In this document: positions 3,040-63,941 of the stretch, piece after piece
How positions within the stretch are numbered: the first letter of the stretch is position 1
Layout of the letters: every line of letters begins with the position of its first letter
Assembly (NCBI GenBank): GCA_030549335.1
Contig: CM060193.1
Coordinates: 56,325,146 to 56,389,145 of the forward strand
Length of the DNA stretch: 64,000 nucleotides
Reading direction: 5' to 3'
From: Pontederia crassipes
Lineage: Eukaryota > Streptophyta > Magnoliopsida > Commelinales > Pontederiaceae
Made by a program: the position numbers and the translations under genes
Notes under the pieces: generated by a model
What the model saw: only the letters and a program-made list of their open reading frames with translations
Told to the model about the DNA's origin: nothing
Databases searched by the model: none

Positions 3040-3260
3040 TTTTTTGAACTCCTTTCTTTCTGCTGCGGTTCTCTTCCTTCCTAGGAAGGAAAGCGGAGAA
3101 GGTAAAAAAAAAAAAAGTGACTGGCGCACGTGGACCTTTTCTCCATTTGGGCCCCACGGACCAATTGGAACGGGAACCAATGGGGTATGAACAGGTAGAT
3201 TTTCATCTGTGGGTCCAGATCCAACGTGGTAGATTACAATTGGATAGGCGACGTGTCAAA
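3040..3260 (-). promoter_or_regulatory. 5' leader and proximal promoter of the TVP38-like gene
   Basis: Read on the minus strand, this stretch upstream of the ATG has CCAATTGGT and TGGGGCCCA motifs (about 3146-3172), a CCACGTGC G-box-like site near 3127, and an ACGTGTC core near 3250. A run of A/T near 3101-3117 lies in the probable leader. No clear TATA box was identified. The assignment rests on position and motif content only. Confidence 0.4.
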
Positions 3261-20156: not shown

Positions 20157-21544
20157 TCATTTAAATTTTGGTACCCAAACTTGTTTGGGTCTAACATGGT
20201 TAATTTTGGTTCCTTTAGGAACCCACATCAATTTATGCTCATATTGATAGATTTTTTTTAATTTGACATTCAAATGAATAATGACCATGGGAATTACAAT
20301 AATGAAAAATAGTAGATGGTCTAATAGAGTGATTCTTATAATATCCAAACTTCAAAGTATCATTATGAGAGACATCAGAATTTTTAGCACAAAGAGAATT
20401 GTCATAAAAGAGTTTATTTTTCAAATGATAATCATGAGAATGTTAGGTTTCAAAGAATAAGAATATTTCAAATAATATCCATTTGTGTTTTTAAAATTTT
20501 TGTTTGAATCATTTTTTTTGTGGTGCATGAGAAATATTCTTTATAAGAGTTTTGACAACATGAATAGACTTTTTAACATTATTAATATTTTTCCAAGAAC
20601 TAATAATTTTTTTATCTAAGAATTTTTGTAAAAAAAATATTTTTCTTTTGTAACTCATCATGCAATACAATTAATTTTGAATTCTCAACTCTTAAAAATT
20701 AATAAGATGCACAATATAATGAAAGAGAATCATTTTTTTTTCTTTTTAAAGTATCTATTTGAATTAAGAATGTATCATTTTCCTTTTTGAGAGAATCATG
20801 CAATACAATTAATTTTGAATTTTCAAGTCTTAAAGATTCATAAGATGCACAAAATAATAAAAAAGAATCATTTTTCCTTTTTAAGGTATCTATTTGAATT
20901 AAGCATGCATCATATTCCTTTTTGAGAGAATCATAGTTGTTTTTCATGATATGAAAATCATTTATTAAGATTTCCTTTTTCTTTTTTAGAGAAAGATGCT
21001 TTTGAATAAGATAAGCAAATTCTTTATGAACATCAAAAGTGATATCAACATCATCATTGCTAGTAGATGTAGAACAATAAGAGTAGTTTGATGTTATCTC
21101 ATTTTCTTCACTTTTTGTCATTAAACATATATCAAAATCTTGATCGGATGTTGTTAATGTAGAATTGACAATTTTTTCTTCACCTTCATCCGATGTTGCT
21201 CGCCTTCATATCTAAATAATAACTTTAGCCAAATCTCATGAGAAGCAGAACATTTAAAAATGAGATTTAAGTTTTCCTTATCTAAAGCATAATAAAATAT
21301 ATTTCGAACTTTATAATCAATTTTGGCAAGTAAAATTTGAAAATCATTATATTCAAAGTAGGAAAGATGAAACACCATTCAAAATCTTCTTTGGGTTTTC
21401 AAAACCATTTTCTATAATTTCCCACATATCAAAATCAATTGAACATAAATATCTTTTCATTCTAATTTTCCAAGAAGAAAGAGAATAGTCATTAAAACTC
21501 GGTGGGTCAAAAATGAAAGATCCTTCTTCAAAAAATGATGTCAT
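20157..21544 (-). pseudogene. Decayed copia gag (SIRE/Maximus-like)
   Basis: Minus-strand pieces in gag order: 21544-21353 contains PPSFNDYSLSSWKIRMKRYL and WEIIENG, the usual copia gag opening; 21378-21154 contains KENLNLIFKCSASHEIWLKL (gag UBN2-like); 21121-20699 is a Lys/Leu-rich coiled coil with a repeated IQIDTLKRKNDS block; 20424-20239 has the zinc-knuckle remnant HYCNSHGHYSFECQIKK; 20348-20157 ends with QVWVPK, typical of SIRE-type gag. Frame changes and stops separate the pieces. Nothing resembling pol follows. Confidence 0.75.
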
Positions 21545-26487: not shown

Positions 26488-29400
26488 ATGCAGGTGCAGC
26501 ACGTCGTCAGGGCGCGCGGCGCCAAGTGCCGCGTAGTGCGGCTGCCACGTCTCCACCCCGCCGTGGCCGCCTTCCACGTGGCGGTGCTGCTCTCGTGCTG
26601 CTTCTGCCTAAGCTCCATCGGCGCCTTCGCTCCGCCGCTGGTAGAAGCAGAACCGACCGCGACTGTCGCCCGGTGCTCCAATATGGTAACACTGCTCTCC
26701 CTTCTCCGCCTCTCCTCCCCTTTTTCCTGAGCTCTTCCTCTCGTCTGCACTGTGCTTATCCTTCACAGGCTATTATGGTATGATTTCTTCAGTTGCCGTG
26801 CTTTGTCTAATTTTTTGATGTCTTCTTTGTGAGATGGTTGTTGGATTTAGGCAGAGCGTGAAATCTAACTGCCGTTCCTTTAATATGAAGCGTTTGTGTT
26901 TTTCCCTTTCTGTGTCGTCTTAGTTGCAGAAGAAGAGCTTGAAGTCTGTTTAGAGCTCAGGTCTCTACGGTCACACCATATAGCAACATTTGCTGTTCAA
27001 AAGTACTTGTTGATCAGCCCAGTAGGATTTTTCAGTAGATTGGGACTGTTCGACAGAATTTGAAGACTTGCTCAAGGCAGGTGTTAGATGTCATATCAGT
27101 GTAGTGAATAGTGGATCTTATGACACCACCATTACACCAGGGGACAAGCTGAGGGCACGCCTAAAAACACACTGAGTTTTACGATGGCATATGAACCGCT
27201 TGAATAGGCCCATTCTGCAAGAAGAAATCTCATGAATTGTCTTAATAACCTGCCAAGGAAGCTTCTTTATGCTTTAGATAATAGACAAAAGTCGCCCCCA
27301 AAAGAATTCTATCGGATTTGGTAACATGCGAATTTGTTCAGTGGATTATAAGCTTGATGGTCAAACATGAGGATATAAACTGCTGAAATGTGGCATGCCT
27401 AATTGTTGTCTCTTTGAGCTTGTGAAAAGTTGTAATAGCTCGATCTATGCACATGATTCAATTTTTTGTTTGGTTCTGAAATTTTCAAAACGCATAATAT
27501 TCTTCCTCTTTTCAATGTCAGCTTTGCTCAAACAATACAATATTCTTGGAGAGGCATTTTCCTTGATTATATTGTTAGAGAATTAGTATGAAGTGAACCT
27601 TCTTCCAATAGATGGCATCGGTTCAGTTCATATTTTCTAGCTATTGTTATGAGCTTTCTATCACTTTCAAGTCATATATACTTGATAAGGTTACACGTCT
27701 CTTTGAGGAGGAGATGGGATTTATGTTGAATATTGGAAGTTTATCAAGGAGAAGCGAGAGACTTTTAGAAGTAAGTTATTAGAGGAAAGTGTGTGGGAGT
27801 TAGAAGGAGATGCTAGTATCATGTGGAAGAATGTGACAAAAAAGGTTGAAATGGTTGCTAAAGCCATTTTAGGAGAATCAAAAGGTTTTGGACCACGAGA
27901 TAAGGAGACTTGGTGGTGGAATTAGGAGGTCCAAGAAAAGGTGCGTAATAAGAAGAATTATTTCAAGGCGATACACTTGGACAATAGTTCTGACAATTGG
28001 GAAAAGTATCGTTTGGCGAAAAGGGAGACTAAGAAGGCAGTTAGTGATGCTCGTACTAAAGCATATGAGGAGTTTTATAAGGAGTTAGGGACAAAGGCTG
28101 GTGAACAAAGGATTTACAAGATTGCAAGGAATAAAGAGAAGGAGTCGAGAGATTTGGATCAAGTAAGATGCATAAAAAATGAAGTTGGCAAGGTTTTAGT
28201 TACTGAAGGAGATATTAAGAACAGATGGGAAGAGTATTTCTATAAGCTATTTAATGATGGATGTGAAGGTTCCCGTTGTGATTTGGAGGACTTGACAGTT
28301 AGCGAATGTGAGCTTAATAGGTCATTTTATCGTAGAATTAGAGTCTCGGAGGTTAGCGAAGCTCTTAAGAAAATGGAGAATGATAAAGCTGTTGGACCGG
28401 ATGGTATACCGATTGAAGTTTGGAAATGTTTAGGAGAAAAATGTGTGTTGTGGTTATGTAAACTATTTAATGAGATTTTACGATCGAAAAAAGATGCCTG
28501 ATGATTGGAGATTAAGTACATTAGTTCCTATTTACAAAAATAAAAGGGATATTCAGAATTGTGCAAATTATAGAGGGATTAAACTTATGAGTCACACTAT
28601 GAAATTATGGAAAAAAGTGATTGAGCATAAATTGAGAATGGAGACTAGTATTTCTGAGAGACAATTTGGGTTCATGCCAGGAAGATCCACTACAGAGGCG
28701 ATTTATTTACTAAGGGGGATGATGGAGAAGTATCGAAGTAGGAGAAGAGACTTACATATGGCTTTCATTGACTTAGAGAAGGCGTATGATCGGGTACCAA
28801 GGGATGTACTTTGGAAAGCCTTGCAAAAGAAAAGGGTGAATGTTGCCTACGTTAAGGTAATACAAGATATGTACGATGGGGCATTGACTAGGGTTAGGAC
28901 ACCCGGAGGTGAGACAAATGAATTTCCTATAGGAATTGGCCTACATCAAGGATCAGCTTTAAGCTCGTATCTATTTAATTTAGTTATCGATGCTATAATC
29001 GAGAGTATCACAGAGGAGGTACCTAAGTGCATGCTATTTGCGGATGATATAGTACTTTTAGCGGATTCAAGAGAAGAGATTAATATAAAATTGGAAATAT
29101 GGAGAAATACGTTGGAGTCAAAGGGTTTTCGTTTAAGTAGGAATAAAACAGAATATATGCATAGCAATTTCACAAATAAACAACTTAGAGACGATTTGAA
29201 AGTTAGACTAGGGGAGGATATAATTCCTCAAGTGATAAAGTTTAAATATTTAGGATCAATTGTAAGACAAGATGGTGAGATTGATGACGATGTTAATCAT
29301 AGAATTCAAGCTGGTTGGTGTAAGTGGAGGAAAGCCACTAGAGTTTTTTGTGATAGAAAAGTACCCAATAAAGTTAAAGGAAAATTCTATCGTACTGCTA

Positions 29401-32400
29401 TAAGGCCAGCAGTGTTATATGGTAATGAATGTTGGGCTATGAAGGGACAACATGAACGTAAAGTGGGGGTAGCCGAAATGAGAATGTTGAGATGGATGTG
29501 TGGTCATACAAGATTAGATAAGATTAGGAATGACCATATACGTGAACGAGTCGGAGTGGTTCCTATTAGTGAGAAAATGGTAGAGAATCGTTTGAGATGG
29601 TTTGATCATGTTTAGAGAAGACCATTAGATGCGCCAGTAAGAAGAGTAGATCAAATAATCTGGAGTCCGATTAAAAGAGGGAGAGGGAGGCCAAGGCGGA
29701 CACTTGGCGAACTAATAGAGCAAGATCTATTGGTGAATAATATACCGAAAGGTTTGATTACTAATAGAGCGGAATGGCGTCGTATGATCCATGTAGCCGA
29801 CCCCACCTAGTGGGATAAGGCTTTGTTGTTGTTGTTGTTATTGGAAGTTTATCAAGGATATGAATGATTTCTCGGAGGAAGATTTACTTCACCATAGTCT
29901 TCTTTCGACGTATCCCATGTTCTTGATATCTCAGGCAGACACCCAAAAAGTGATAGTTCAAACAGCTTTACATGTGATTGTCATTTATGGTTTGCAATAA
30001 ATCATGCACTTAAAAGGAGAATTGATTAAGCGTTAGTTTTATCACATTTTTCTTGTTTGATCTGTGGTATCTGCATGTATTGATAGAACAACCAAAGGCT
30101 GTAGAACTACTTCTGTGCCCTGACTTCTGTAAAACAGGCGAATTCATATAAAAATATCAGGACACTTTCTCAGAAAGTTCATGGTCATTCATATACACGT
30201 GTTTTGAGATATCATAAGATATGGAAGGTAGGATGAAAAACACCAATTACTTCCTCAAGAACTTATTTCCTATTATCTTATAAATGAAGATATATTTTTT
30301 AGATTAAATAAAGGCCTTTGTTGATTGATCTTTCTTCAGGATGAACGCGGAGCCCTTATAGTAGAGGAAACTGCAAGTGACAATCTCAAAGATGTTTCAA
30401 AAGTCAAAGCTTCATTGAAGTACTTTGATGCCAACTTTTTCAATGATTCAAAGGTGGTTAATGAAAGTGATCATATAATGTTGCCACTTTATATTTCTTT
30501 CAATGTTCCACATTTATAATCTTTCTTTATTTCTTTTAGGTGCAAGAAATGATAAAAGGTGCTAGAGAGTTTAATATACCTATGTTTACAGTGAACCGTA
30601 GATTAGTTGCATCTACTAATGGTGGCTTGCATAATCCATCGGTTCTGGTATTCAATTCGTCATGGAGTAACAAGGAAAATCCTCAAGATACAAAATTCAG
30701 TAATCCTCATGTGGGTGAAATACGACGACCGGGGGAAGAGGATGATATTGCTTTCATGACTGTATGTCTTATTTCAGAATATATAGTCAATCAAATGTTG
30801 TTGTAACTGTTCCAATCTTAATCTTGGGATCTTTAAACTTGCATATTCTATTATACTTATTAATTTTGAGATATTGGATAATAGGTACTTGAACTCGGTG
30901 AACTTATTAAGACCAAACAAATAACTTCTCAGGAGCTTACTGACATATTCATTCGGAGATTAAAGAGGTAGCATGCATTAGCCTGACAGTTTTGGGGCAT
31001 ATTTCTTGTTTTGATACATTTGAATCCATTATAACAACATGATATTATTTGTGTTAGGTATAACCATGTTCTTGAAGCTGTTGTAACATTGACTGAAGAG
31101 CTAGCACACAATCAATCAAAGAAAGCAGATGACTTATTGGCACAGGGAGTTTATCTAGGTATAATAAAAATGTTGTCCCCTTTGCAGCTTGTTTATTCTT
31201 GTTGATAAGAACTCTTACCTTGCATAAAACATCAGGAGCTTGAAAGAATCGGAATAACAAAATTAAATCGAATCATGACATTAAGAAACTGAATAAACTA
31301 AATGCAGAAACTTACAATTGTCCATCGCTCTTTTTCGATCACGAACAAGTTATCTACTGACTTCTTGTGTTAACGAACACTTGATGGAATGGACTTACAA
31401 AACAACACCACATAAATCTATTCTTCTTCGCACGGATGGGGAATGCAAAAGAAAAACTTTTCATCAAATAGATTTCTTCCAACTTGTTATTTGTTTTGGG
31501 GACAAGGGATTTGAAGTCTCACACATCATGAAATCTTCAAATGCACCCTTTGATCTCTATATGCTTTTTGGCATTGATGCACTTTTGATCATTATGTATA
31601 TACCATTTCATAACACATATATCTTTAATCTTTTTATACCTTTTGGTATATATACATCTCTTGGTATATATATACTCCTTTTAACCTTCTGGTATGTACA
31701 CATTTTGGTCTCTACACATATTATTCCATATCATATTAATAAACAGGATTATTTTCTTAAACCTCCCCTAAACTATTGCGATTTATACATATAACCTCAA
31801 AGTATGAACTTACCTTCCGATATCCCTGAACTTTATCGCATTTTTTACTTAGTCCTTCTGTTTGATTTTGTTAATTTTTCTATTATTTTTATTTTTTCCG
31901 ATTTCTGAATAGATTGAAATGTCCTTCCACAAGCTCTCCTCTATAAAAAAATGTAAAAACTTTCCCAATTTCTTATTATATATTTATGCCCTCACTGGGA
32001 CGAAAGTTTCTATATTTTTTTGTTGTTTATATTATTTTTTAACATTAAAAGATAGAAGAGCTTGTGAAAGGACATTTTAGTCTTTCACAATGGAAAAAAA
32101 GTAAAACTAACAGAAAAGTTAACAGAATTAGACAGAAGAACTAAAGTGGAAAATGCGATAAAATTTATGGATATTGTAGGGTAAGTTCATACTTTAGGTT
32201 AGATGCGAAAAATCATGATAGTTTTGGGGAGGTTTAAGAAAATAATCCTAATAATATGCCCATAAATACTCTGATCACTTTATTTAGGCCTTAATATATT
32301 TTGACAATCCTTAATTGTATATTTATGTTCATATTAAATTCAATGTTGGAATAATGTTCCAATAATCTTCCACTTGGGTTATATATGAAATTTTATAATT

Positions 32401-35400
32401 ATACATACCAAAATGAGCTCAACTTTGTTGTCAAAATCATAATACCTTAAAACAATCTCATTCATCAATTATGCTAATAAAGGATCAAAATAGTTTTTGT
32501 CACAACTCGACTCAACAATGGTCACATATATCAATATAATCATTAACAATATCTTGATATGGATGCGTAGCATGAAGTTACATGCAATGTGATCATGACA
32601 TGCCGACTCTCAACTGGTCCATTTTATCGATATCAGTTTTGATAAAGAGTGAAACTCGACTATAGATCTGCAAATCTTAACCTTAATATATAAGTCGAAC
32701 TATAAGATAAAATGTCTAAGATATGAGCATTTTTAATTACGAACTCTCACCGACACTGAATATTCTGGATTGAAATGACGCTCATATTACCGGTGTGCTC
32801 AAGAAATACCATGAGTAACAATCCTTGATAAGTGGATTCACAATAGTCGAGTTTATCCTAATATGCTCTATAGACACTAATCTTTTGTTCACTCTTTCTT
32901 TAACAACAAGGAATTTGACTTTAATGTGTCTCCATTTTGTCGTGCTCCTGTTGTTGGAATATATGACTGTCACCTTATTGTCATAGAAAATAGTTGTAAT
33001 GGTCTTTTAATATTTAGCAATGAATTCTACTTTTATAGTTTAAGAGGGTAACAATTAATTGTTTGACACTCTTTCATAATATAACACATCCTACAAATAA
33101 ATGTAGTCTAATATAGATTTCATGTTATCTTGGGCGTTTGACAAATCAAAGTATGATTATCCAATGACCTCAACCTGATTTGTCAACTGCTTTCTCCTAA
33201 TCCATTTCTGGGTTACTTAAATATTTGCCTAATATTTCAGTAATGTACGTAATATTCAAAATCGTACAAATTTGAACATTCATAAGACTTCCTATTGCTA
33301 ATGCATAAAAATCTTCTGCATTTTCATTCTCTCGAAGTCATTGTCATGACACTAGTTAGGACTAAACTTGTCTCCTTTAGATGTAAGACTTCTTGACTTA
33401 TTAAGCACAATTTCATTATATATGAATTTGCAACACAAAAGATATAATCAAGATTTTTCATCTCAAAATGTCTTATAAAAAATCTCTTGATCTCTTGAAC
33501 GTGCTTACTCCTACCGATCTTTTGACATACACAATCATGTGTTGAGTTCATCTCAAAATCAAATGAGATAATAATTTCATGAAACTTGTGATATCATATT
33601 CATCTAATGTGACTCATATCTTGAAAATCAACGTCTTCTTTCTTTATAAAGTTCAATAACAATAAGTCTCACTTTATATTTTTCTACATTGCCTTTTGAA
33701 CTCTTTTTAGTTTTAAATATCTTTTAAAACTAAAGATTTCATATCTTTGGGCAATGAGATAGAGATCTAAACATTATTGTCATTCATGAACTTTATTTAT
33801 TTATGCATGCCATCCATCCACTTTTGAGAATTTAGAACTTTCCATAATTTGATGAAGATTGATTGAATCATCCTTTATTATGTCAATATCAACTTGATGT
33901 TTTTGAAGATATATAGTATAGTCATATGAAACAACACTTCTCCTTTCTCTACTGGATCTTTTTATGGCAAATGTTCTTAAGGTTATAGAGTTTGTTGTTC
34001 TGGAAGGGCTTTCAACATTATTTTAATCATAATTGACATTCTTAATACAACAACAACAACAACAACAAAGCCTTATCCCACTAGGTGGGGTCGGCTACAT
34101 GGATCATACGACGCTTTGTTGTTGTTGTACTAGCATATAAATATGTATATATATTTAGATATATATAAAAATGATTTGGAATGTTACTATTTATCCCTCT
34201 TGATATTGAAATTATCAAATACATTATGATGATCTTTTATGAAAAGACTATTTGCCTTTAGTTTTATACCTTAAACAAGGGCGAAATGATTTTGTGTGCA
34301 TGTAATTTACATATGAAAAATAAAATACTTGTATTGGCATGAAAATGACAAGCAAGTTGTGCCCTTCATGTGTAGCTTCGAGCTGACACCAGCAATATGT
34401 TGTGCCATGTTGTCCTGAGAGTTGATACAACCAATCCACTTTGATTGCTTGAGCACGATCCATTCTGATATGTTTGTCCACTTTCAAGTTGCATTTGTTT
34501 TGATGAAAATATTTTCTTGGATAAATTCTTTATTGTACATTGTCTGGAACCTCAGAATAATTTGCCAACACCATTTCTTGTTCATTAGGAGATAAATGTT
34601 AAATTTTGTAAAATATGAATGAGCTTCTGTTTTGTAAATGAAAATTACTTTCTATATCTTGATAAATGTTAATAAGAATTCACTTCTCATAATCCTTTTT
34701 TTAGATTCCCCAAATTGTTTTAATCTTATATTACGAGATCGTCTTCTGAATACATGGAAATGAATCGCTTTGGAATTGATTTTACTTGGAACTCGTTTAC
34801 TTAGGAATTTCTTTAGGTTTTATATACATATGAAATAGTATGATCTTGCTACATCAGAATTTATTTCCATTTGTTTTTTATTGTACAAACTGGATGGCAG
34901 GTCCCCTTCATGGCATTCCTTATGGGTTGAAGGATATTATAGCTGTGCCACATTATAAGACTACATGGGGTTCAAAAACATTCAAAGACCAAGTTATCAA
35001 CCATGAAGCATGGGTTTATAAAAGGTACATGTTGACTCCATAAAGCTATCCAGTAACAAAGATAAATAACACCTAACAATGATACGAGATGTCATTGATT
35101 TTGGTTCAGACTAAAATCTGCCGGAGCAGTTCTTGTAGCCAAGCTTGTCTCAGGGTCATTAGCCTATGATGACATCTGGTTTGGAGGAAGAACACGCAAC
35201 CCGTGGAATATTGAGGAGTTCTCTACAGGTTCTTCTGCTGGACCAGCTGCTGGCACCTCAGCAGGTTGCTTTTGTTGTTTCATGTGATTGAATTCTGTAC
35301 CTTCTTTGCTATTCTTGGATGTTAAGTTGGAAGCATAGTAAATCCATCCTTACATAGTGTTTTTTATGTGATTTCTAGGTCTGGTTCCTTTTGCAATTGG

Positions 35401-38400
35401 TTCAGAGACAGCAGGTTCCATGACTTATCCTGCTGCTCGTTGTGGTATCACTTGCTTGCGCCCAACTTTTGGAACAGTTGGGCGTAGTGGCGTCATGAGT
35501 ATATCCGAGAGCTTGGTACTTGGATACATCTCAATCAGAACCTCTCGTGTTGTCAGTTTAAGATTTAAGAGAGAGATACTAAGATCGGTTATTGTCTATA
35601 ACAGGATAAGCTTGGTCCTTTCTGCAGAAGCGCAACTGACTGTGCAGTTGTTATAGATGGCATCAGGGGAAAGGATCCTGAAGATCTTTCATCTCGAGAT
35701 GTTGCCCTAGAAGACCCATTTCAAGTTGACATTACAAAACTCACTGTAGGGTATTTAGAAGATGCGCAGATGGAGGTAAGTAAAGTTACCAGAGTTAGCA
35801 GCAATTAATTCATCGGCTTGTCCTTTGTGTAAGGTAGCATCTTTTGTACATGGGCAGCAAGACAAGTTTGATGTTGCAACTAGATCCTAGGATGATTGTG
35901 TTCGTTTGTTGGTTACCTGGTTTTGTTCTACTTCGTTCAAGGTGGTACATGTGCTTCAATCCAAGGGTGTGAAAGTTGTTCCTTTCAAATTGAAGTATAC
36001 AGTTGAATCGGTTCAGGCTATTCTGAATTTCACAATGGATGTCGATATGCTGTCCCACTTTGACAACTGGCAACGGTCACACAATGATGATGAATATGAA
36101 GCTCAAGATCAGTGGCCTGTGGAACTCCGGCGTGCCAGGATGGTGCCTGCAGTAGATTATACACAGGTATTCATTGTGTCCTAATTATTCTGAATCTCTG
36201 CTGTAAGTATTTTGTGATTAGAGTGAATAATTCATTACATATTCTACGGTGTAATAGAGGTTTCTTTATTGTGAATTAATTATCTATGATTTTCTTTACT
36301 TTTCATGCAATAAGATCTTAGCTTTCATTCGTCAGATGATCTGAAAAATTATATGGGAGGTGAGTTTCTTCCAAAAAGAAGAGACTGTTCCATTTGATAG
36401 TTTAAGTGGCAAAGCATCTCAATCATGAAGCATTTATGAGATAATAATGCATATATAACAAGCAACACATGTTGCTCGCAGATTGTCATGTAGGCACACC
36501 ATTAAAACATCATTCAATGATGCATACACATTACAAGTGTAGTTATTGCACTTGCATTGCTCTCATTTTGAACATTGTTAAATTTCATGATATAGTCACA
36601 TTGGATTTCTTTTTCTTTTAATGAAAAGACAACTAACTCCGCCTATATTTTATAGCCGGTCCCAAGCCCGGATAAAGGAGGAGGGTTGTGTTAGGCCCCG
36701 ACAGCCAACATAAAATCATGTCGAATCTTATGAACATGGATCAACGAATATATTGTGTTAATGCTAGGTCGTTACCCGTAAGTAACGCGCTGTACAGCTC
36801 GGGTACAGTGATAAGAGAGCAAGAGCCGCTGCATCCTCGCCTGAATGCAGTGTTAAATGAGCAAGGGCTACCGCACTCTAATGGACGGAGGCGGTTAAAG
36901 AAGCTAGTTCATGAGACTAAGGTCAGATTAGGTTCTTGGAACATTGGGACGTTGAATGGGAAGCGCCTCGAGGTGGCACAAGTAATGGACCAGCGTAAGA
37001 TTAGTATCTTATGCTTGCAAGAAACTAGATGGGTAGGAGAGGGAAGTAAAGAGATTAGGTTAAATGGTTCCAAACTTTGGTACACAGGTAAGGTAAATGG
37101 AAGGAATGGTGTTGGTATTATCGCGGATGCAGAATGGAGGAAGAATGTTGTGGAAGTTAAAAGGATTGAGGATCGAATCATATCCGTGAAAGTAATTGTT
37201 GGAAAGGAGACTATGAACATTATTAGTGCATATGCACCCCAAGTAGGAGCAGAATCACATCTCAAGGAGAAGTTTTGGGCAGATATGGAGGGTTTGATTG
37301 AAAGTATACCAACAACCGAGAAAGTTTATATTGGGGGAGACCTTAATGGACATGTTGGTAAAGAGGCAGGACCACATGCAAGGGTTCATGGTGGTTTTGG
37401 TTTTGGGGAGTTGAATGAGGAAGGACAAACTATTATTGATTTTTCTTTAGCATACGACCTTAAGATTATCAACACTTGTTTTAGGAAGAGAGAGGAACAT
37501 TTAATCACATACAAAAGTGGAACTCATAGGTCTCAAATCGATTTTTTCTTGATAAGAAATACTGATAAAAGACGTTGTACTAATTGCAAAGTAATTCTTG
37601 GGCATGGGGTGACTACACAACATAGATTGTTAGTTCTTGATATGCAAATAAAATGTATAAAACCAAGATCCCGAACAGTTTTTGATCGAAAGATCAAGTG
37701 GTGGCAGTTAAAGGGGGAGAAGCGAGAGACTTTTAGAAGTAAGTTATTAGAGGAAAGTGTGTGGGAGTTAGAAGGAGATGCTAGTATCATGTGGAAGAAT
37801 GTGACAAAAAAGGTTGAAATGGTTGCTAAAGCCATTTTAGGAGAATCAAAAGGTTTTGGACCACGAGATAAGGAGACTTGGTGGTGGAATGAGGAGGTCC
37901 AAGAAAAGGTGCGTAATAAGAAGAATTGTTTTAAGGCGATACACTTGGACAATAGTTCTGACAATTGGGAAAAGTATCGTTTGGCGAAAAGGGAGGCTAA
38001 GAAGGCAGTTAGTGATGCTCGTGCTAAAGCATATGAGGGGTTTTATAAGGAGTTAGGGACAAAGGCGAGTGAACAAAGGATTTACAAGATTGCAAGGAAT
38101 AAAGAGAAGGAGTCGAGAGATTTGGATCAAGTAAGATGCATAAAAAATGAAGTTGGCAAGGTTTTAGTTACTGAAGGAGATATTAAGAACAGATGGGAAG
38201 AGTATTTCTATAAGCTATTTAATGATGGATGTGAAGGTTCTCGTTGTGATTTGGAGGACTTGACAGTTAGCGAATGTGAGCTTAATAGGTCATTTTATCG
38301 TAGAATTAGAGTCTCGGAGGTTAGCGAAGCTCTTAAGAAAATGGAGAATGGTAAAGCCGTTGGACCGGATGGTATACCGATTGAAATTTGGAAATGTTTA

Positions 38401-41342
38401 GGAGAAAAAGGTGTGTTGTGGTTATGTAAACTATTTAATGAGATTTTACGGTCGAAAAAGATGCCTGATGATTGGAGATTAAGTACATTAGTTCCTATTT
38501 ACAAAAATAAAGGGGATATTCAGAATTGTGCAAATTATAGAGGGATTAAACTTATGAGTCACACTATGAAATTATGGGAAAAAGTGATTGAGCATAGATT
38601 GAGAATGGAGACTAGTATTTCTGAGAGACAATTTGGGTTCATGCCAGGAAGATCCACTACAGAGGCGATTTATTTACTAAGGAGGATGATGGAGAAGTAT
38701 CGAAGTAGGAGAAGAGACTTACATATGGCTTTCATTGACTTAGAGAAGGCGTATGATTGGGTACCAAGGGATGTACTTTGGAAAGCCTTGCAAAAGAAGA
38801 GGGTGAATGTTGCCTACATTAAGGTAATACAAGATATGTACGATGGGGCATTGACTAGGGTTAGGACACTCGGAGGTGAGACAAATGAATTTCCTATAGG
38901 AATTGGCCTACATCAAGGATCAGCTTTAAGCCCGTATCTATTTAACTTAGTTATCGATGCTATAACCGAGAGTATCACAGAGGAGGTACCTAAGTGCATG
39001 CTATTTGCGGATGATATAGTACTTTTAGCGGATTCAAGAGAAGAGATTAATACAAAATTGGAAATATGGAGAAATACGTTGGAGTCAAAGGGTTTTCGTT
39101 TAAGTAGGAATAAAACAGAATATATGCATAGCAATTTCACAAATAAACAACTTAGAGACGATTTGAAAGTTAGGTTAGGGGAGGATATAATTCCTCAAGT
39201 GACAAAGTTTAAATATTTAGGATCAATTGTAAGACAAGATGGTGAGATTGATGACGATGTTAATCATAGAATTCAAGCTGGTTGGTGTAAGTGGAGGAAA
39301 GCCACTGGAGTTCTTTGTGATAGAAAAGTACCCAATAAAGTTAAAGGAAAATTCTATCGTACTGCTATAAGGCCAGCAGTGTTATATGGTAGTGAATGTT
39401 GGGCTATGAAGGGACAACATGAACGTAAAGTGGGGGTAGCCGAAATGAGAATGTTGAGATGGATGTGTGGTCATACAAGATTAGATAAGATTAGAAATGA
39501 TCATATACGTGAACGAGTCGGAGTGGCTCCTATTAGTGAGAAAATGGTAGAGAATCGTTTGAGATGGTTTGGTCATGTTCAGAGAAGACCATTAGATGCG
39601 CCAGTAAGAAGAGTAGATCAAATAATCTGGAGTCCGATTAAAAGAGGGAGAGGGAGGCCAAGGCGGACACTTGGCGAACTAATAGAGCAAGATCTATTGG
39701 TGAATAATATACCGAAAGGCTTGGTTACTAATAGAGCGGAATGGCGTCGTATGATCCATGTAGCCGACCCCACCTAGTGGGATAAGGCTTTGTTGTTGTT
39801 GTTGTTGTTAATGAAAAGACAACTAACTCATTCTATTATGAAAGAAGAGCTTCCTGATACAAAAAAGGAAGAACTTCCTGAAGGAGTTCTCCCAATGTAC
39901 ATTCAAAAGATTTGCTTTATCGAGGTTTGCAATACAATTTGCAAATTTCTCTGTGGGTGTATCATATTGGAATTCTAGCTGTGATCTTTTGTCTAATAGT
40001 AACCTTATGGTTATCATTAATATTTTGCTTTTAAGCATTAAAGTGGTAGATCAAAAACTACATATTCTTTTGGCTAGTCTTTACATAGCTTTTAAGTGTA
40101 TTTAATATAGCTAGTATCCATGTGCAAGTTTTCCGAATTGATATTATCAAGCAATGTTTCTGGCTCCATAGGCTCAGAGGGCAAGAGGAAAGTTGATCAA
40201 GGAGATTCGAGAAAGTTTTACTGTTGATGCATTCATAGGTAATGCCACTGATTGGGAGATTGTGTGCTTAGGAAATCTTGTCGGTTTTCCTGTTGTTGTT
40301 GTTCCAACAGGTTTCAAGAGCGTTGATAACCCACCAAAGGGTGGCACACGAAGAAGGACCACAGTAACAACAGGCATTTATGCTCCGCCTGATCATGATC
40401 ACATTGTAAGTTGTTATGTATTACAAAGCTTGTACTCTTGTCAGTAACATTGTTTATATTAAATTTATAAACCACTGCTTGGTCATTACCTGAGAGGTTT
40501 TCACTGGTGAACTCAAGAATAAGTTTATCTGAAATTACTAGGTTGGGAGGATTTAAAAAAGAGTAAAATGCTTCATGGCTCAGTCCTAATATGACAAACA
40601 TCAAAGACTAGGTTCCACATTTACGCATGATCCGGTCATGGAATAAATTGGTCTCTGCTGTGAAACCAAAAGAAAGAGCTCTCCACAGATTTTGTTTATT
40701 TGCTTTTGTTCCATAAACACTATTATCGAAAATGTTGCCAACACATTTGTGGAGCTAAATGAGATGAACTTCAAAGGTTGCCCACATTCCCTGTTAACTG
40801 TTGCTAATCTTCTCATATCTCAATCATAATGTGACTATGGCCCTTCTTAGGACATCATTAGATTGTGTGTAACATTGCAAACATGCGTTGCAAGGAGGGA
40901 ATGCCTCCAAAGGAGGGAAAAGCGAAGAAACAGATTCATCATCATCCCATTACAATATAATAAAGAACGAGGGAAGGAACTAATACCCTGTTTTAAGAAT
41001 AACATTCCCTTATATATCATCATTTCTTTTCCTTTCAACGGAATGTCCATATAGCACAGCTGTTCTAAGAAAAAACTTGACATGCCTTGCTTTATTATTT
41101 ATTCCTCTGTTCGTTATAAACTCGGATATTACAATGCCGGCAATAGTTGCCAATTTCAACGTGCATGGTAGTTGGCGACATCTTCCTTCTTGAAGTTAAT
41201 GTTTGTTTCTTCCTATCAGTAAATTTAATGCTTATTTGTGATATTTTAGGCTTTGGCATTAGCCATGGCATACCAGTCGGAGACCGACCACCACAAACAA
41301 AGGCCGCCTATTGACGATCTTGGGGAGGATGGCAAGTTCTAG
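26488..41342 (+). CDS. Amidase-signature family hydrolase (At5g07360-like), complete
   Basis: Coding exons: 26488-26685, 30340-30453, 30540-30761, 30885-30967, 31058-31158, 34901-35024, 35110-35264, 35379-35515, 35605-35775, 35942-36166, 40172-40405, 41250-41342 (TAG). All introns are GT-AG and every phase fits, giving about 618 residues. Residues about 24-48 are hydrophobic (signal or anchor). The amidase domain follows from about residue 185, with the catalytic triad Lys250 (GIPYGLKDI), cis-Ser322 (STGSSAGPAAG) and nucleophile Ser346 (GSETAGSMTYPAA). The Ser-Ser spacing of 24 is that of characterised amidases. The family hydrolyses C-N amide bonds; the substrate is unknown, and it is unlikely to be the GatA subunit given the extra N-terminal region. 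Introns 1, 5 and 10 hold retroelements yet splice sites and frame are intact. The first exon is the least certain; a short extra exon between 26685 and 30340 cannot be excluded. Confidence 0.9.
27751..29838 (+). mobile_element. 5'-truncated RTE-clade LINE in amidase intron 1
   Basis: Starts within the ORF at the point equivalent to 37717 of the full copy at 36640 and runs to the (GTT)n tail. Flanked by a 20-bp target duplication (27731-27750 and 29839-29858, TATTGGAAGTTTATCAAGGA). Sequence is nearly identical to the full copy. Its reading frame is broken by a TAG (about 27925, where the full copy has GAG), a one-base insertion near 28490 (extra A before AAGATGCC) and a TAG at about 29613 (CAG in the full copy). 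RT motifs FIDLEKAYDRVPRDVLW and CMLFADDIVLLADS are still visible. Dead on arrival. Confidence 0.93.
31250..34030 (-). mobile_element. Internally deleted Ty1/copia retrotransposon in amidase intron 5
   Basis: Minus-strand pieces in pol order: about 34020-33690 begins RRSSRERRSVVSYDYTIYLQ and continues to the start of RT; 33600-33324 holds FHEIIISFDFE and FFIRHFEMKNLD (late RT); 32973-32782 holds NNRSTTKWRHIKVKFLVVKE and VSIEHIRINSTIVNPLIKD (RNase H). The polypurine tract AAGTGGAAGATTATTGG (minus) near 32360-32376 marks the 3' LTR start, and the LTR extends to about 31250 and is split by a MITE. Gag, protease and integrase are missing, and the frames are broken. Confidence 0.75.
31745..32249. 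mobile_element. 505-bp MITE with about 200-bp terminal inverted repeats
   Basis: Ends AGGATTATTTTCTTAAACCT and its inverse. The inverted arms keep matching (AAAGTATGAACTTACC, TTATCGCATTTT, AAATGTCCTT, CACAAGCTCT) almost to the centre, so nearly the whole element can form a hairpin. Inserted in the copia 3' LTR. A clear target duplication was not resolved. Confidence 0.8.
34047..34128 (-). mobile_element. Short RTE tail fragment with inverted trinucleotide ends
   Basis: ACAACAACA...AAAGCCTTATCCCACTAGG and GGATCATACGACG are the reverse complement of the last about 60 bases of the RTE at 36640. Directly after it comes CTTTGTTGTTGTTGT, the same tail in the opposite orientation, so CAA and TTG repeats bracket the fragment. 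Confidence 0.7.
36640..39807 (+). mobile_element. Full-length RTE-clade LINE in amidase intron 10
   Basis: About 3.17 kb from CGCCTATATTTTATAGCC to a (GTT)n tail. It is flanked by a direct duplication of up to 22 bp (about 36618-36639 and 39808-39829, core ATGAAAAGACAACTAACT). A 48-bp leader precedes a single long ORF, and the 3' UTR is only about 30 bases. A single endonuclease-RT ORF and a microsatellite tail instead of poly(A) are RTE traits. It lies in the sense orientation of the host gene. Confidence 0.93.
36688..39777 (+). CDS. RTE LINE polyprotein: AP endonuclease plus reverse transcriptase, 1029 residues
   Basis: An uninterrupted ORF. After a 75-residue N-terminus, the apurinic-type endonuclease shows VRLGSWNIGTLNG, LCLQETRW (acidic metal ligand), SAYAPQ, IGGDLNGHVG, RSQIDFFL and a terminal TTQHRLL (catalytic His). 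The RT domain follows with GPDGIPIEIW, NYRGIKLMSHTMKLWEKVIE, SERQFGFMPGRSTTEA, MAFIDLEKAYD (Asp690), GLHQGSALSPYLFN and MLFADDIVLLADS (catalytic FADD), then a thumb with KYLGSIV and a basic C-terminus (RGRGRPRRTLGEL). It nicks the target and copies its own RNA. Residue 691 is Trp (TGG) where the sister copy has the conserved Arg (CGG), a CpG-to-TpG change beside a catalytic Asp that may reduce activity. Otherwise it looks intact. Confidence 0.92.
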   Translation: MLGPDSQHKIMSNLMNMDQRIYCVNARSLPVSNALYSSGTVIREQEPLHPRLNAVLNEQGLPHSNGRRRLKKLVHETKVRLGSWNIGTLNGKRLEVAQVMDQRKISILCLQETRWVGEGSKEIRLNGSKLWYTGKVNGRNGVGIIADAEWRKNVVEVKRIEDRIISVKVIVGKETMNIISAYAPQVGAESHLKEKFWADMEGLIESIPTTEKVYIGGDLNGHVGKEAGPHARVHGGFGFGELNEEGQTIIDFSLAYDLKIINTCFRKREEHLITYKSGTHRSQIDFFLIRNTDKRRCTNCKVILGHGVTTQHRLLVLDMQIKCIKPRSRTVFDRKIKWWQLKGEKRETFRSKLLEESVWELEGDASIMWKNVTKKVEMVAKAILGESKGFGPRDKETWWWNEEVQEKVRNKKNCFKAIHLDNSSDNWEKYRLAKREAKKAVSDARAKAYEGFYKELGTKASEQRIYKIARNKEKESRDLDQVRCIKNEVGKVLVTEGDIKNRWEEYFYKLFNDGCEGSRCDLEDLTVSECELNRSFYRRIRVSEVSEALKKMENGKAVGPDGIPIEIWKCLGEKGVLWLCKLFNEILRSKKMPDDWRLSTLVPIYKNKGDIQNCANYRGIKLMSHTMKLWEKVIEHRLRMETSISERQFGFMPGRSTTEAIYLLRRMMEKYRSRRRDLHMAFIDLEKAYDWVPRDVLWKALQKKRVNVAYIKVIQDMYDGALTRVRTLGGETNEFPIGIGLHQGSALSPYLFNLVIDAITESITEEVPKCMLFADDIVLLADSREEINTKLEIWRNTLESKGFRLSRNKTEYMHSNFTNKQLRDDLKVRLGEDIIPQVTKFKYLGSIVRQDGEIDDDVNHRIQAGWCKWRKATGVLCDRKVPNKVKGKFYRTAIRPAVLYGSECWAMKGQHERKVGVAEMRMLRWMCGHTRLDKIRNDHIRERVGVAPISEKMVENRLRWFGHVQRRPLDAPVRRVDQIIWSPIKRGRGRPRRTLGELIEQDLLVNNIPKGLVTNRAEWRRMIHVADPT

Positions 41343-58190: not shown

Positions 58191-58459
58191 TAAAAAGGTA
58201 AACATATTTACTTTTCGGGTACGGTCGTACTCAGTTTTAAGTTTGGATCGAATCTAACCTTCTCCGAATCAGGTGAGCAATATTAAAAATGTATTAGTAA
58301 AATTGGTTGTACAATTTGACCACTTTTTTTTCTTTTTGCATTACTTAATATTAATAAGCACTTAATTCTTATTTCAAAAGTGCAAAATAAATTTATATTT
58401 TAAAAATATTTTTACATTCATTTATTTTATTTTTTGGATTATGGTTAATGAGTCACTAA

Positions 58460-58637
58460 ACTCCGCCTATGTTTTATAGTCGGTCCCAAGTTCGGATAAA
58501 GGAGGAGGGTTGTGTTAGGCCCCGACAGCCAGCGTAAAACTCTGTCGAATCTTATGAATATGGATCAACGAATTGGCGTCGTATGATCCATGTAGCCGAC
58601 CCCACCTAGTGGGATAAGGCTTTGTTGTTGTTGTTGT
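58460..58637 (+). mobile_element. SINE-sized RTE derivative (178 bp)
   Basis: Joins the first about 115 bases of the RTE at 36640 (CGCCTATGTTTTATAG ... ATGGATCAACGAAT) to its last about 65 (TGGCGTCGTATGATCC ... CTAGTGGGATAAGGC) and (GTT)n tail. Flanked by 19-bp duplications ATGGTTAATGAGTCACTAA / ATGATTAATGAGTCACTAA (one mismatch). Confidence 0.9.
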
Positions 58638-58656
58638 ATGATTAATGAGTCACTAA

Positions 58657-60428
58657 TATCTAAATATGCCAACACCCGAAAGCGCACCATGCAGGACACG
58701 ATACAGGTAAGTCCGAACGAAGAGGATGATTATGAATTTCGATCTTAAAATATTAGCACTTATCCAGCTTTGCCAACCTCTCTTTCTTAAACATTAAGTC
58801 ACGTATAAATTTAGGTATGAGGTAATCTAAATAGATTATCGATTATTTTATTTAAAATTTTTAAGGTCCGTCACATTATCTCGTTTGATTATGATTAATT
58901 ATCAATAATTTTAATTACTCTGACAATCTTGATTTTCACTTATCTAGAGAGGGTAGATGTCTTTCAAGATTATCAATCGGGGGAATGCATTTTAACTAAA
59001 ATATTTATTCAGTTGAATTTTTTATTAATAAGTAAATATTATTTAATTTTATCTTTTTTATTATTTAAATTTTTTTACAAATAACTCTTAATTTTGTCTC
59101 ATCTTTCTTATATATATATATTCACTTTTCTATTTTTTCTTTGTTTATTTATTATTTATAATAATATGTTATTAAAATTTTAAATAATTTTTTGAAGTAT
59201 TTTTGAAAATTTTGTCCATTTTGACTATTATTTATATTACCAATACTTATTAATATAATATTATTAATAATTTAAATAGTGATAATATATATAAATTATC
59301 GATTAATTAAATCGGTCACTTAAAGTTAAATAAAAAATAACAAAAAAAATCAAAGAACGGTGAGATCTTTGGATCAAATCCGATTAATCCGAAAAAAAAA
59401 TCTCGGATCGGATCCGATCGTGAGTCGAATTGTATTTAGATAGATCCGGACTCAACAATAAGTTGGGTCAATTGAAGAGTTAAAATTTATAAAGTTAAAA
59501 AAAGGGAGAAAATTCTGCATGTAAAAAAGGATCGTGGGTTATTTTTCTTCTTTTGGGCACTGGCAACACAAATCAAGTAATCCAACTCCAATCCCTTTCT
59601 ATTTTGTTCTCTTTTCCCTTTTTTCCGGAAAGAGTTCAGCAAAACAGAAACTAATTCGACCACCGGTAGAAATCAAATTTCTCGCACCATCACGTCATCA
59701 TGGCCGCAAAATATATTTTTATTTATTTATTTATTATTATTATTTTCTTACGTCGCATTACTCATAAATTAAAATATAAATTTATTATCAAATTTGACTA
59801 ATCAAATTTCATACAATAATATATAACAAATGAAAATAATGAAATGATTAATATAAATACATTTATTAGTATAGGAAATTTAACAACAAAATTATAATAT
59901 ATCAAATAAAAATTTCATAATGTAATTACATAATACTGAGTTATACAAAAAAATTATGTCATTAATGAAAAGGTATTTGACTCACGCACTAACAATATTG
60001 ATAGCAATATTATAAACGAAAGACGGTCAATTTTAATTTGTTAATCGAAGTCCTTTTTTTTTCAATTTTGATTCACTCTCGTGACATAAAATACGTAGCG
60101 AAAACAACACAAAAATGTTGAAAATGCAGGTGCTAACAATTTATCTGTCGACTATTTACAAATTGTTTTTTGTAGAGTAAATTATTGCATCCAGAAAAAT
60201 ATCCATTCTTTTTTTTATGTCGAAAGTAAATACTGCATCGTAATCCTTGTGTTTTTATTGGGAAAATAAATATGCGTGATATATTGCCATATATGTCCAC
60301 AGAATTAATTAAGGTTCACAAATTATCAAATCTTCGAACACTACCCCAGACATTTATTATTCTCGGAAAATTCTCAAAAGATATCATGTGCTCAAATATT
60401 GACATAGTGTTCTCCCTATTTCAGTGCC
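58657..60428. other. AT-rich intergenic sequence
   Basis: No supported gene. GGATCGGATCCGATCG near 59406 is a short palindrome; the ORF at 59534-59767 is a low-complexity reading. Confidence 0.4.

Positions 60429-60522
<94 letters not shown>
60429..60522. repeat. (AAT)n microsatellite, about 31 units
   Basis: 94 bp of uninterrupted AAT repeats, about 550 bp upstream of the TSN TATA box. A second, short ATT run lies at about 60664-60680. Confidence 0.97.
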
Positions 60523-60699
60523 GAAAAAGGTAATATCAAACCTGATAGTGGAATTTTATAAAAAGCCTCACAATTTTAAAATATGAATGTGAAATAAGAA
60601 CTAATGACCCTATTTATGCACTATTATTATTTTACACTTACTACGTATTTATCATCATCATAATATTATTATTATTATTACTATTACCTTTATTAGAAA

Positions 60700-61240
60700 G
60701 TAGGATATTTTTGTCCCGTGATGGGCCGGAAGGTTCCGCAAATCGGACCCAACTACGCAAAATTCCAAAGCTGCCACACCGAACACTTGGCGTAGAAGGG
60801 CTGAAAGGTAACTCCACGTGCGATCTCACATATATATATTGTATATATCTCAGATATAAGCCACCATTTATATCGCTATTCCTCTTTTACTGTTATTTTT
60901 TTTTTCTTCGATAAGGACTGTTATATATATTAACCAGCAAGGAGCCCAAGCCCGTTACGAACGAACTCCGTTAGGCTCTGCGTCTACTATATAAACCTTC
61001 GCCTGTACACCCGACGCCTCTTTTCTTATGTAACGTTTTTTTTTTCGTTCTCTCTTCGTTCTCGTTCCTCGCGGCGGAGTCCCTCGTCTCGAATCCTTCG
61101 CTGACTCCCTCCTCTTCCCCCTCTTCGATCGTCCCGTCGAGCGGGGAATTGGGAGACGTGGGAGGCGCGGAAGAGGTCGAGCTGCTGATCGCCACTCCGA
61201 TCCCGGCAGGGTCGGCGGTTTCGCTCGAGATCCAGTCGAG
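60700..61240 (+). promoter_or_regulatory. TSN: TSN promoter and 5' leader exon
   Basis: A good TATA box CTATATAAACC lies at 60987-60997, so transcription should start near 61020. TGGGCC (site II-like) is at 60723. The leader exon ends AGTCGAG at 61240 before the donor GTAAGC. The leader intron runs 61241-61871 (acceptor GAGAGCAG), a common arrangement in plant housekeeping genes. Confidence 0.65.
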
Positions 61241-61886
61241 GTAAGCTGCTTCGGAGATCTGAATGCGGTAGAGGGCAGATCTGGCGGATCTGCAGTGTTA
61301 ATGTTCGATCTTCTCGCGTTTCTCCCCGGAAAGGTTGCGGCTTTCGGTGATTCGCGCCTTCGAATTGCGATCGGTGCACGGATCTCAGTTTCTGTTGATG
61401 ATATGAGTTGATATTGCTATTGGTGATAGTTTTCTTCGTTGATATTGATCCGTTTGATGGTATTTCGATTGCTTCTTTCCTTGAAACGTATGTTGGGGTG
61501 TTTAATGCTGATTTCGAATTGGTTTTGATGAATTTCAATCGAGATGCTTCATTCAAACGGTTTTAAAGACGATCCGTGAAAGAAGACCCGAACTTTATGC
61601 AATTTCCATTGTTCTGGCAAGTTTTTAAGGAAACCTTTTATTTCGTTATATTTTCTTTATTTCGAAAAGAGAATGCGTAGGCACATCGATAACTGTATTG
61701 TTTCTTTGTTTCTGTGGAGGTTTTATTCTTCTTCTACTACTGATCTCGATTAGTCCTTTTTAAACCAAAAATCCAATCATCTATGTTTGAAGAAGAGGTT
61801 GCTTGAAACGATGATTTCTTGGTAATTTTTTATTCTACTTGCTGATATGAAAATTTTATTTCTGAGAGCAGAACGTTCCTGAAAGC

Positions 61887-63941
61887 ATGGCATCATCAAC
61901 AGCAGCAACAGGATGGCTGAGGGGGGTAGTGAAGTCCGTTCCATCCGGGGATACATTATTGATAATGGGAAGCACGAAGGCGGAGCTTCCACCAGAAAAG
62001 TTAATCGGCCTATCTTCCATAACAGCTCCTAGACTGGTGCGAAGAAAACTCAAATTTTATCATATATCAGTTAGATTTAAGTTTTGATTTCTACTTACTG
62101 TTATTTTTAAAAGTTACTGAAGCACTTTTCCCGTATACAATAATAATTTTTGGATTCATGATTTCCTGTTCGTCAGAAACCTACTTAAATTGGCTAAATC
62201 TGATAGCTTTCTGCAACAGATGTTTATCCTGGATATTTAATGTTCAAGTCTTCACTATCTTACTCCACAAAGAATCTGAATTTATGTTTGTGTCTTCTAT
62301 TATGCTATTTTAATAGGCCCGTCGTGGTGGAGTGGATGAACCTTTTGCATGGGCCAGCAAGGAATATTTAAGAAAACTCTGCATTGGAAAGGTCTGTGCT
62401 GTGTATCTTGATTTTGTTTTTTCACATTTCTATATCTTTGAATTCTCAATGTTAATAATATTCTTTTCTTTCAGGAAGTCCATTTTAGGGTGGAATATAC
62501 TGCTCCATCAGGTCGGGAGTATGGTTCTATTTTCCTCGAAAAGCAGAACCTTGCTTACTCTGTTGTTTCCAATGGATGGGCAAAGGTGAGGTTAATTTGT
62601 GCAACTCTTTTTTCATGATTACTTTCAGAAGTGTTAGGCCCAAGCCCGGATAAAGGAGGAGGGTTGTGTTAGGCCCCGACAGCCAGCGTAAAACCCTGTC
62701 GAATCTCATGAACATCGATCAACGAATATGGCGTCGTATGATCCATGTAGCCGACCCCACATAGTGGGATAAGACTTTGTTGTTGTTGTTGTACTTTCAG
62801 AAGTATCACTACACAATTTTAATTTAAATTATCTTTTCTTATCTCAAAATGTTGAACAGGTGAAGGCCTCAGCTCCGAAAGGTGAAGCAAACCCTTATCT
62901 CCAAGAACTTCAACATTTGGAAGATGAAGCTAAGAAGCAAGGACTAGGATGTTGGAACAAGGCAAGTGACTGGCCTATTATTTTTTATCTTATTTCATGA
63001 GTTGCATTTTTGTTCTTTGAATTGGTTTCCTATTTGACAAGTGAGGTAAGTTGTTGGTGCACTTATCCCCCATATTTACAATTATTTTTTGTTTGGTACA
63101 CTAATCAGATAATATTCTAAGTTGGAACAGTTCAAAAGAAGTATTTGCTGTTGTGAGTTTGAAAAGGAAGGAAATTCATGAGCGTTAGTCCATTGTTCTC
63201 TGCAGACACCAGAAGATCTTGAGAAATCTGTAAGGGACTTGCCTCCTTCAGCCATTGGTGATCCCAGTAGTTTGGATGCCACAGGCCTGCTAGCTGCAAA
63301 CAAGGGTAAACCTATGGAAGCAATTGTTGAGCAAGTCCGTGATGGTAGCACAGTTCGAGTGTACTTGCTTCCTGATTTCCAATTCGTTCAAGTTTTTGTT
63401 GCTGGAATCCAGGTACATATAAACTAACACAATGACTTATCATGTGTGAATATTGTTCCAGAATATGGAATTTCGTCTTCCTATTATTTATATGATGAAA
63501 ACTTTTTGCTGTGCTACAAAACTTGTTTTTTTAACCAGGCTCCATCAATGGGAAGACGGGCTGTGGCTGATGTCGTTCCTGAAACTGAGGCTTCTAATAA
63601 TGATACAAATGGAGAAGCTTCTAGTGAAACACAACAACCTCTAACTTCTGCACAGAGGCTTACTGCATCTGCCATGTCAACTATTGAAGTTGCACCAGAA
63701 GCATTTGGGAGAGAGGCCAAGCATTTCACTGAAATTCGTGTGCTAAGTAGAGACGTAATGATGTCCCCTTGAGCTATATAGAATGTAGTCACCTTTCTCT
63801 GGCTGTATTAATGATTTTCTCTGAAACTTCCAGGTTCGGATTGTTCTCGAGGGCGTGGACAAATTTAGCAACCTGATTGGTTCTGTGTATTACCCTGATG
63901 GAGATTCTGCAAAAGACTTGGCTCTGGAACTTGTTCAGAAT
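61887..63941 (+). CDS. TSN: Tudor-SN (TSN1/SND1-family) ribonuclease/RNA-binding protein, N-terminal part
   Basis: Coding exons: 61887-62036, 62317-62391, 62475-62585, 62860-62961, 63206-63412, 63539-63754, 63834-63941; the gene continues past the window. 323 residues are visible of a protein usually near 1000. The start MASSTAATGWLRGVVKSVPS, then GDTLLIMG, is the conserved plant beginning of the first staphylococcal-nuclease-like (SN) domain (about residues 10-145, with YLRKLCIGKEVHF and GSIFLEKQNLAYSVVSNGWA). The second SN domain starts near residue 180 (GKPMEAIVEQVRDGSTVRVY). The full protein has four SN domains and a Tudor-SN module. It binds RNA and acts in stress granules, P-bodies and mRNA stability. 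The intron after 62961 starts GC (AAG/GCAAGT) rather than GT; all other donors are GT. Intron 3 (62586-62859) holds a 160-bp RTE derivative. Confidence 0.95.
62633..62792 (+). mobile_element. SINE-sized RTE derivative (160 bp) in a TSN intron
   Basis: Same layout as 58460-58637: RTE 5' end (CCCAAGCCCGGATAAAGGAG ... GATCAACGAAT) joined to the RTE 3' end (ATGGCGTCGTATGATCC ... AGTGGGATAAGAC) and (GTT)n. Flanked by a perfect 12-bp duplication ACTTTCAGAAGT (62621-62632, 62793-62804). Slightly 5'-truncated compared with the other copy. Confidence 0.93.

Follow-up and report, generated by a model that had tools for sequence, protein, structure and literature searches.

The birth of short interspersed nuclear elements (SINEs) from long interspersed nuclear elements (LINEs) is usually inferred from old and rare events. 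The land-plant pairs shown in the accessible text of PMC3747384 are TS and ZmSINE2/3, all with tRNA heads; the tobacco TS SINE has a 3' end with TTG repeats in common with the potato RTE, as the elements described here have with theirs, but its head is a tRNA. The mammalian RTESINE1, MAR4, Bov-A2 and RTE1-N1_LA likewise combine both RTE ends, a head annotated as '5'-end of RTE' (or BovB) and an RTE tail, although neither a twister head nor a per-copy junction is described for them in that text (PMC3747384). In trypanosomatids, L1Tc/ingi, SINE-like elements and SIDERs likewise carry a 5' hallmark with a self-cleaving ribozyme (Pr77) that is common to the LINE and its short relatives; Pr77, however, is hepatitis delta virus-like rather than twister and is also a promoter, and the accessible parts of these sources describe no junction diversity (PMC4035085, PMC8190864). 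Truncated but competent twisters are stated, as work 'in preparation', to be conserved at the 5' ends of RTE-superfamily retrotransposons, the position of the twister match here, but the text available mentions no short forms or junctions (PMC7761336). Here, we analysed 64,000 nt of Pontederia crassipes DNA (assembly GCA_030549335.1, contig CM060193.1, positions 56,325,146 to 56,389,145, forward strand; the window, throughout), which holds an RTE LINE and two short copies, A and B, made from its two ends. We propose, with a probability of about 0.58, that the ends of the LINE RNA pair, that the loop between them is lost around reverse transcription, and that a SINE-like copy results.

The full-length RTE copy (the parent) and the two short forms have the following features, in window coordinates:

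36635..39809, + strand: parent RTE LINE, with a 5' twister, one long frame, a 3' hairpin and a (TTG)n tail
36630..36689, + strand: type-P1 twister match at the parent's 5' end (RF03160, 63.0 bits, E 2.2e-14, cut-off 67.2)
36734..36747, + strand: 5' strand of a 14-bp end-to-end complementarity, ACATGGATCAACGA (RTE nt 101-114)
36744..36760, + strand: 5' breakpoint zone in the RTE, where the 5' piece has its last nt (111-127, in 100 copies among the matches listed)
39692..39746, + strand: 3' breakpoint zone in the RTE, where the 3' piece has its first nt (about 3059-3113)
39747..39761, + strand: 3' strand of the complementarity, TCGTATGATCCATGT (RTE nt 3114-3128, one A bulged)
58459..58637, + strand: short form A (RTE nt 2-116 plus the last ~65 nt; junction CGAAT/TGGCG)
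58455..58513, + strand: twister match of A (RF03160, 46.9 bits, E 1.2e-9), the only family returned by a permissive Rfam scan of A
62633..62792, + strand: short form B, without about the first 25 nt (junction CGAATAT/GGCG)

The parent is assigned to the RTE clade of LINEs by its domains and its (TTG)n tail. Its 20-nt target-site duplication (TSD), AATGAAAAGACAACTAACTC, lies at 36620-36639 and 39810-39829 and overlaps the element start by microhomology, and its long frame, with a first ATG at 36718, encodes a 1019-aa product that has both an endonuclease and a reverse transcriptase domain (Pfam RVT_1, 1.9e-36; Exo_endo_phos, 1.9e-7). A preliminary description of this DNA had presented A and B as independent insertions of one two-ended design, and both points are borne out: each consists of the RTE 5' end (~115 nt) and the last ~65 nt, A being flanked by a 19-nt TSD with one mismatch (58441-58459 / 58638-58656) and B by the 13-nt TSD TACTTTCAGAAGT (62620-62632 / 62792-62804). 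They thus show the classical plant SINE trait, a 3' end common with the partner LINE together with TSDs, and use of the RTE machinery, as had been presumed, is probable. The identical junction attributed to the two copies was not found; those of A and B are similar, not equal, and the product expected from the 4-nt GAAT microhomology, CGAATGGCG, is the junction of neither. B opens (62633-62645) with GTTAGGCCC followed by AAGCCCGG, and GTTAGGCCC recurs later in the element, so that a second small switch at its 5' junction is possible. The RTE frame is kept across B's junction (MNIDQRI+WRRMIHVADPT) and not across A's.

Exact-match patterns applied to this one genome, from which all genome-wide counts derive, revealed 3,812 short forms of the type GATCAACG-N(2-14)-GGCGTCGTATGATCCATGTAGCC, compared with none for the reversed-pattern control. 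Among the 100 matches listed, all on contig C1, 42 junction strings occurred, the commonest being CGAATGGCG (n = 14), CGAATATGG (n = 11) and CGAATTGG (n = 8). A's junction accounted for 8 of these 100 and B's for 11; since both are among the commonest recurrent junctions, the similarity of A to B is weak evidence of descent. On the parent's own 5' haplotype, 658 short forms were found against 367 RTE-body 5' ends, the right-hand letters of the short-form and RTE-body patterns being different, and longer gaps added 73 matches, at least two of which are other arrangements. This uniform haplotype yielded 69 junction strings among 100 listed of the 658 (contigs C1-C4), the commonest seen 8 times. 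The other haplotype examined, AGCGTAAAACCCTG, had 3,015 short forms and 97 RTE bodies. To avoid selection by junction, the 3' tail alone also served as query and gave 13,030 exact tails, and the first 70 comprised 36 short forms, among which 23 different junctions occurred, 16 copies that extended into the RTE for 460 nt or more, and 18 that were 3'-only; of these last, L137 (start 2706) is perhaps a longer RTE copy. Separate joins are fewer than strings, because some strings differ by later point mutation only. One locus, L100, combines three pieces, one from the 3' end, a partial one from the 5' end and another from the 5' end, with both joins at CGAAT. Overall, the short forms are thousands strong and their junction is no family signature, and many or most of them seem to have been made anew. 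The preliminary description took a shared junction as a sign that the deleted form itself had retrotransposed and named varied junctions across the genome as what would refute this; such variation is what was observed, and its inference stands for some copies only, those with CGYATG, treated below.

The breakpoints fall at the edges of the complementarity between the LINE's two ends, whose strands lie ~3 kb apart in the RTE. In 98 of 100 listed parent-haplotype copies the 5' piece ends at nt 114 or later, mostly at 114-121, whilst the 3' piece starts at 3085-3112 in the parent-haplotype pattern and as far out as ~3059 in the longer-gap class; 17 matches cut into the stem, compared with the 658 and 73 given above. 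Folding of the joined RTE ends gave a probability of 0.93-1.0 for 10 stem pairs, and a short form in locus L008, identical to the consensus of copies resembling A (the A-like set), is predicted to fold into the hairpin ACAUGGAUCAACGA / UCGU(A)UGAUCCAUGU with the junction as its loop (whole-element z-score -2.05). In a longest-exact-run test, chosen second, after an unrestricted duplex-energy test had come out non-significant, a 10-nt exact complement was present in none of the 186 internal windows on either side and arose in 21 of 2000 dinucleotide shuffles. Stronger than these pairing statistics is the argument that the stem coincides with both breakpoints. Tail-only copies end in the same region, 8 of 18 starting within 3073-3113, a zone (41 of 417 nt) picked after the data were seen (p 0.00015). 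The window contains one such copy:

34053..34114, - strand: tail-only copy, its 5' end GCGTCGTATG (RTE nt ~3111) inside the 3' breakpoint zone

Directly before it (34053-34130, - strand) stands GTACAACAACAACAAAG, the inverse complement of a (TTG)n tail, which would fit an inverted jump or an inversion at the 5' end.

The head shared by the RTE and its short forms matches the core sequence and predicted structure of the type-P1 twister ribozyme RF03160. Scanning of 20 loci, out of 40 retrieved, gave 28 such matches (39.2-66.8 bits, against the cut-off of 67.2), and in the parent the predicted cut falls between 36634 (U5) and 36635 (A6). Among 40 short forms from L041-L140 chosen for a near-intact 5' motif, an A precedes ACTCC in all 40, whereas the base before that A varies (T17, G9, A9, C5). 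A TSD was found for 29 of these 40, compared with 2 of 40 decoys, and the gap from its end to ACTCC was 0 nt in 15 copies, 1 nt in 11 and further in 3. In the A-like set a similar search found a TSD for 30 of 46; 21 of these TSDs run straight into ACTCC, in which case the target base is an A as well, and in 2 a single A intervenes. The TSD ends and the invariant A together place the element start at AACTCC, the predicted cleavage adenine A6, and this fixed start fits release by self-cleavage, a putative activity here. Loci L034 and L025 (contigs C7 and C10) have 17 and 10 extra bases, respectively, between TSD and ACTCC, those of L034 resembling a broken element start. Pairing of P1 with the upstream flank reached 2.05 of 4 pairs compared with 1.81 in control flanks, and with so little enrichment a need for a P1 strand from the flank was rejected. 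P1 is dispensable for twister cleavage and U5 is not conserved, according to the available parts of PMC5408937 and PMC6154101, and the P1-less 'mini-twister' of these sources likewise suits a ribozyme with target DNA as its upstream strand, but it is a laboratory construct and not a mobile element. A search of the viral_contigs collection with the 27-nt twister core gave 0 matches, and the accessible text of PMC12542633, on plant twister circular RNAs, contains no mention of RTE or SINE that we could find.

Taken as a sequence of events, our proposal begins with a LINE RNA that would start at the 5' twister, seemingly without need of a fixed upstream sequence, so that a copy that had landed in a transcript could release itself by cleavage at its first base. 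The two RNA ends are predicted to pair over 14 bp and would form a panhandle in cells, target-primed reverse transcription would begin at the 3' hairpin and (TTG)n, and cDNA synthesis would quit the 3' piece just past the panhandle, about nt 3059-3113, and restart on the 5' piece immediately beyond the opposite strand of the stem, mostly at nt 114-121. The ~3-kb loop would be skipped or lost and a ~180-bp SINE-like copy inserted, imprecise joining giving many copies a junction of their own; some short forms, with both ends kept, may then amplify as true SINE subfamilies. The joining step could be a template jump, for which the R2 enzyme offers a parallel, as this reverse transcriptase of a retrotransposon without long terminal repeats likewise carries cDNA synthesis on to another template despite scant or absent base-pairing; R2 jumping was seen in vitro, however, and its authors suggest, in the accessible text, that it is maybe not physiologically necessary (PMC8857657).

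Several results weigh against this proposal. The matches listed are the first ~100 places, on the first contigs, and the patterns restrict which junctions are visible. When duplex energy was left unrestricted, a stability as great as that of the real ends was reached by 373 of 1000 shuffles and, among 139 windows for each side, by 19 paired with the 3' end and 6 paired with the 5' end. In 14 of the 100 young copies listed the overlap is negative, the join having gained letters or changed later, and part of the junction sharing is descent, so not all short forms are new events. No match in the window, nor any of the 28 in the 20 loci, reaches the Rfam gathering score, and a curated scan would thus miss such copies; the shortfall probably comes from the P1 stem, one strand of which would lie upstream of the cut in target DNA. 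A's twister core, moreover, carries substitutions and is probably weakened. Lastly, 5' and 3' breakpoints showed no correlation (rho -0.15, p 0.15) in a hand-pruned set of 50 short forms from 100 rows and 45 long forms from 73, with variants collapsed and odd rows dropped by hand and 3 forms with inserts removed by script. Uncorrelated breakpoints speak against a strict jump between paired partners, and a base-paired register jump was accordingly rejected; they fit better with two ends that were trimmed or stopped independently and kept together.

Such ends could also arise within the same general scheme if the loop were cut, or trimmed to the duplex edges, and a host RNA ligase joined the pieces before reverse transcription. 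This variant, a possible but doubtful one in our view, accommodates the uncorrelated breakpoints and has a precedent in the LINE-1 chimeras of human mobility assays, which stem from preligated RNA according to the text available (PMC8857657). It sits less well with the tail-only insertions, which end in the same zone as if the reverse transcriptase met an end or stopped there, with overlaps of 1-4 nt at the joins that exceed a uniform null (mean 1.20 nt over 86 joins without inserts, compared with 0.71), and with the double join in L100.

A conventional replicating SINE, produced by one deletion, once, and then spread by the RTE machinery, would make the shared junctions simple descent, and we regard it as unlikely. 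Part of the evidence does point that way. In the A-like set 40 of 46 full-length copies share A's junction and many differ from the consensus by 0-1 changes, but the query that retrieved these 46 contained that very junction, and the set therefore does not settle descent. On the AGCG haplotype, counted after point variants in its rows had been normalised, CGYATG occurs in 16 of the 100 copies listed, and two junctions account for 10 of these 16 (none of 5000 permutations was as extreme), whilst RTE bodies carry it less often (2 of 97, a count made by eye, compared with 16 of 100 short forms; Fisher p 0.0008). CGYATG subfamilies were therefore probably amplified as short forms. Samples not picked by one junction contradict a single-deletion family as a general account, however: in addition to the 42 strings and 69 strings per 100 and the 23 among 36 given above, the CTTATG copies show 14 junctions in 14. 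Descent from one deletion may hold for subfamilies of the CGYATG type. Loci L003, L019 and L021 each contain a tandem pair of short forms ~190-200 bp apart within a common outer flank, apparently segmental copies of one double insertion, and rows sharing a flank in this way are not independent. Two A-like loci on different contigs, L011 and L029, have a common 5' flank and different 3' flanks.

Junction diversity could, alternatively, be a ladder left by a long-loop master short form that lost parts of its loop in each round of copying. The hairpin does fold in the one copy folded, and the loops of short forms do vary in length; yet the 5' breakpoints are tight and the 3' ones broad, and the long forms are not nested (5' to ~124 and 3' from ~3092 in L008, compared with 117 and 3076 in L093). 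With 367 RTE bodies of the same haplotype able to act as direct template, we consider this erosion quite improbable.

Deletion at the DNA level after insertion, between the GAAT repeats found at both breakpoints or across the 14-bp inverted complementarity, is highly improbable, as no more than 8 of the 100 young junctions listed have a 4-nt overlap, RTE-body 5' ends are fewer than short forms on the parent haplotype and tail-only copies share the breakpoint zone. A spliced intron was dismissed because both ends are variable and inspection by eye showed no GT-AG at the breakpoints. The RNA polymerase III (Pol III) A and B boxes that the preliminary description suggested seeking in the 5' part gave no Pol III head, the head being the twister match, and a Pol III SINE was likewise rejected: no tRNA was found in the 3 loci examined, and in the one copy searched for boxes (L008) the best strict A box had 3 mismatches and the best B box 2, with no near-match in A-then-B order. 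That copy has a TTTT run at nt 14-17. An Au-like SINE was also set aside, the tail being (TTG)n and not the poly(T) or short T stretch of Au (PMC3747384, accessible text).

Elsewhere in the window lies a further RTE copy:

27748..29842, + strand: 5'-truncated RTE copy, 98% identical to the parent, with TSD ATTGGAAGTTTATCAAGG

B stands within a gene that, judging from its reading, may encode Tudor-SN; its 50-aa exon gave no Pfam match. The segment 13810-15225 is repetitive and open in several frames on both strands, and head-to-tail duplications lie at 15638-16191 (278 bp, 94% identical) and 20639-20934 (~160 bp, 86%).

In the literature covered, which excludes most subscription papers and bioRxiv, we found no account of junctions that differ from copy to copy at an end-to-end complementarity, nor of a twister-headed plant SINE. 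With thousands of short forms, many breakpoints and same-haplotype RTE copies in one genome, the process by which LINE ends become a SINE-like element can be mapped base by base. The 14-bp pairing of the LINE ends is a testable RNA feature, which may determine the point at which reverse transcription quits its template. Ultimately, and at somewhat less than an even chance in our estimation, a built-in panhandle would turn a large share of LINE retrotransposition into fresh two-ended copies, so that SINE birth would be routine and structure-directed rather than accidental and rare, with the twister keeping each product capable of release from whatever host transcript contains it.

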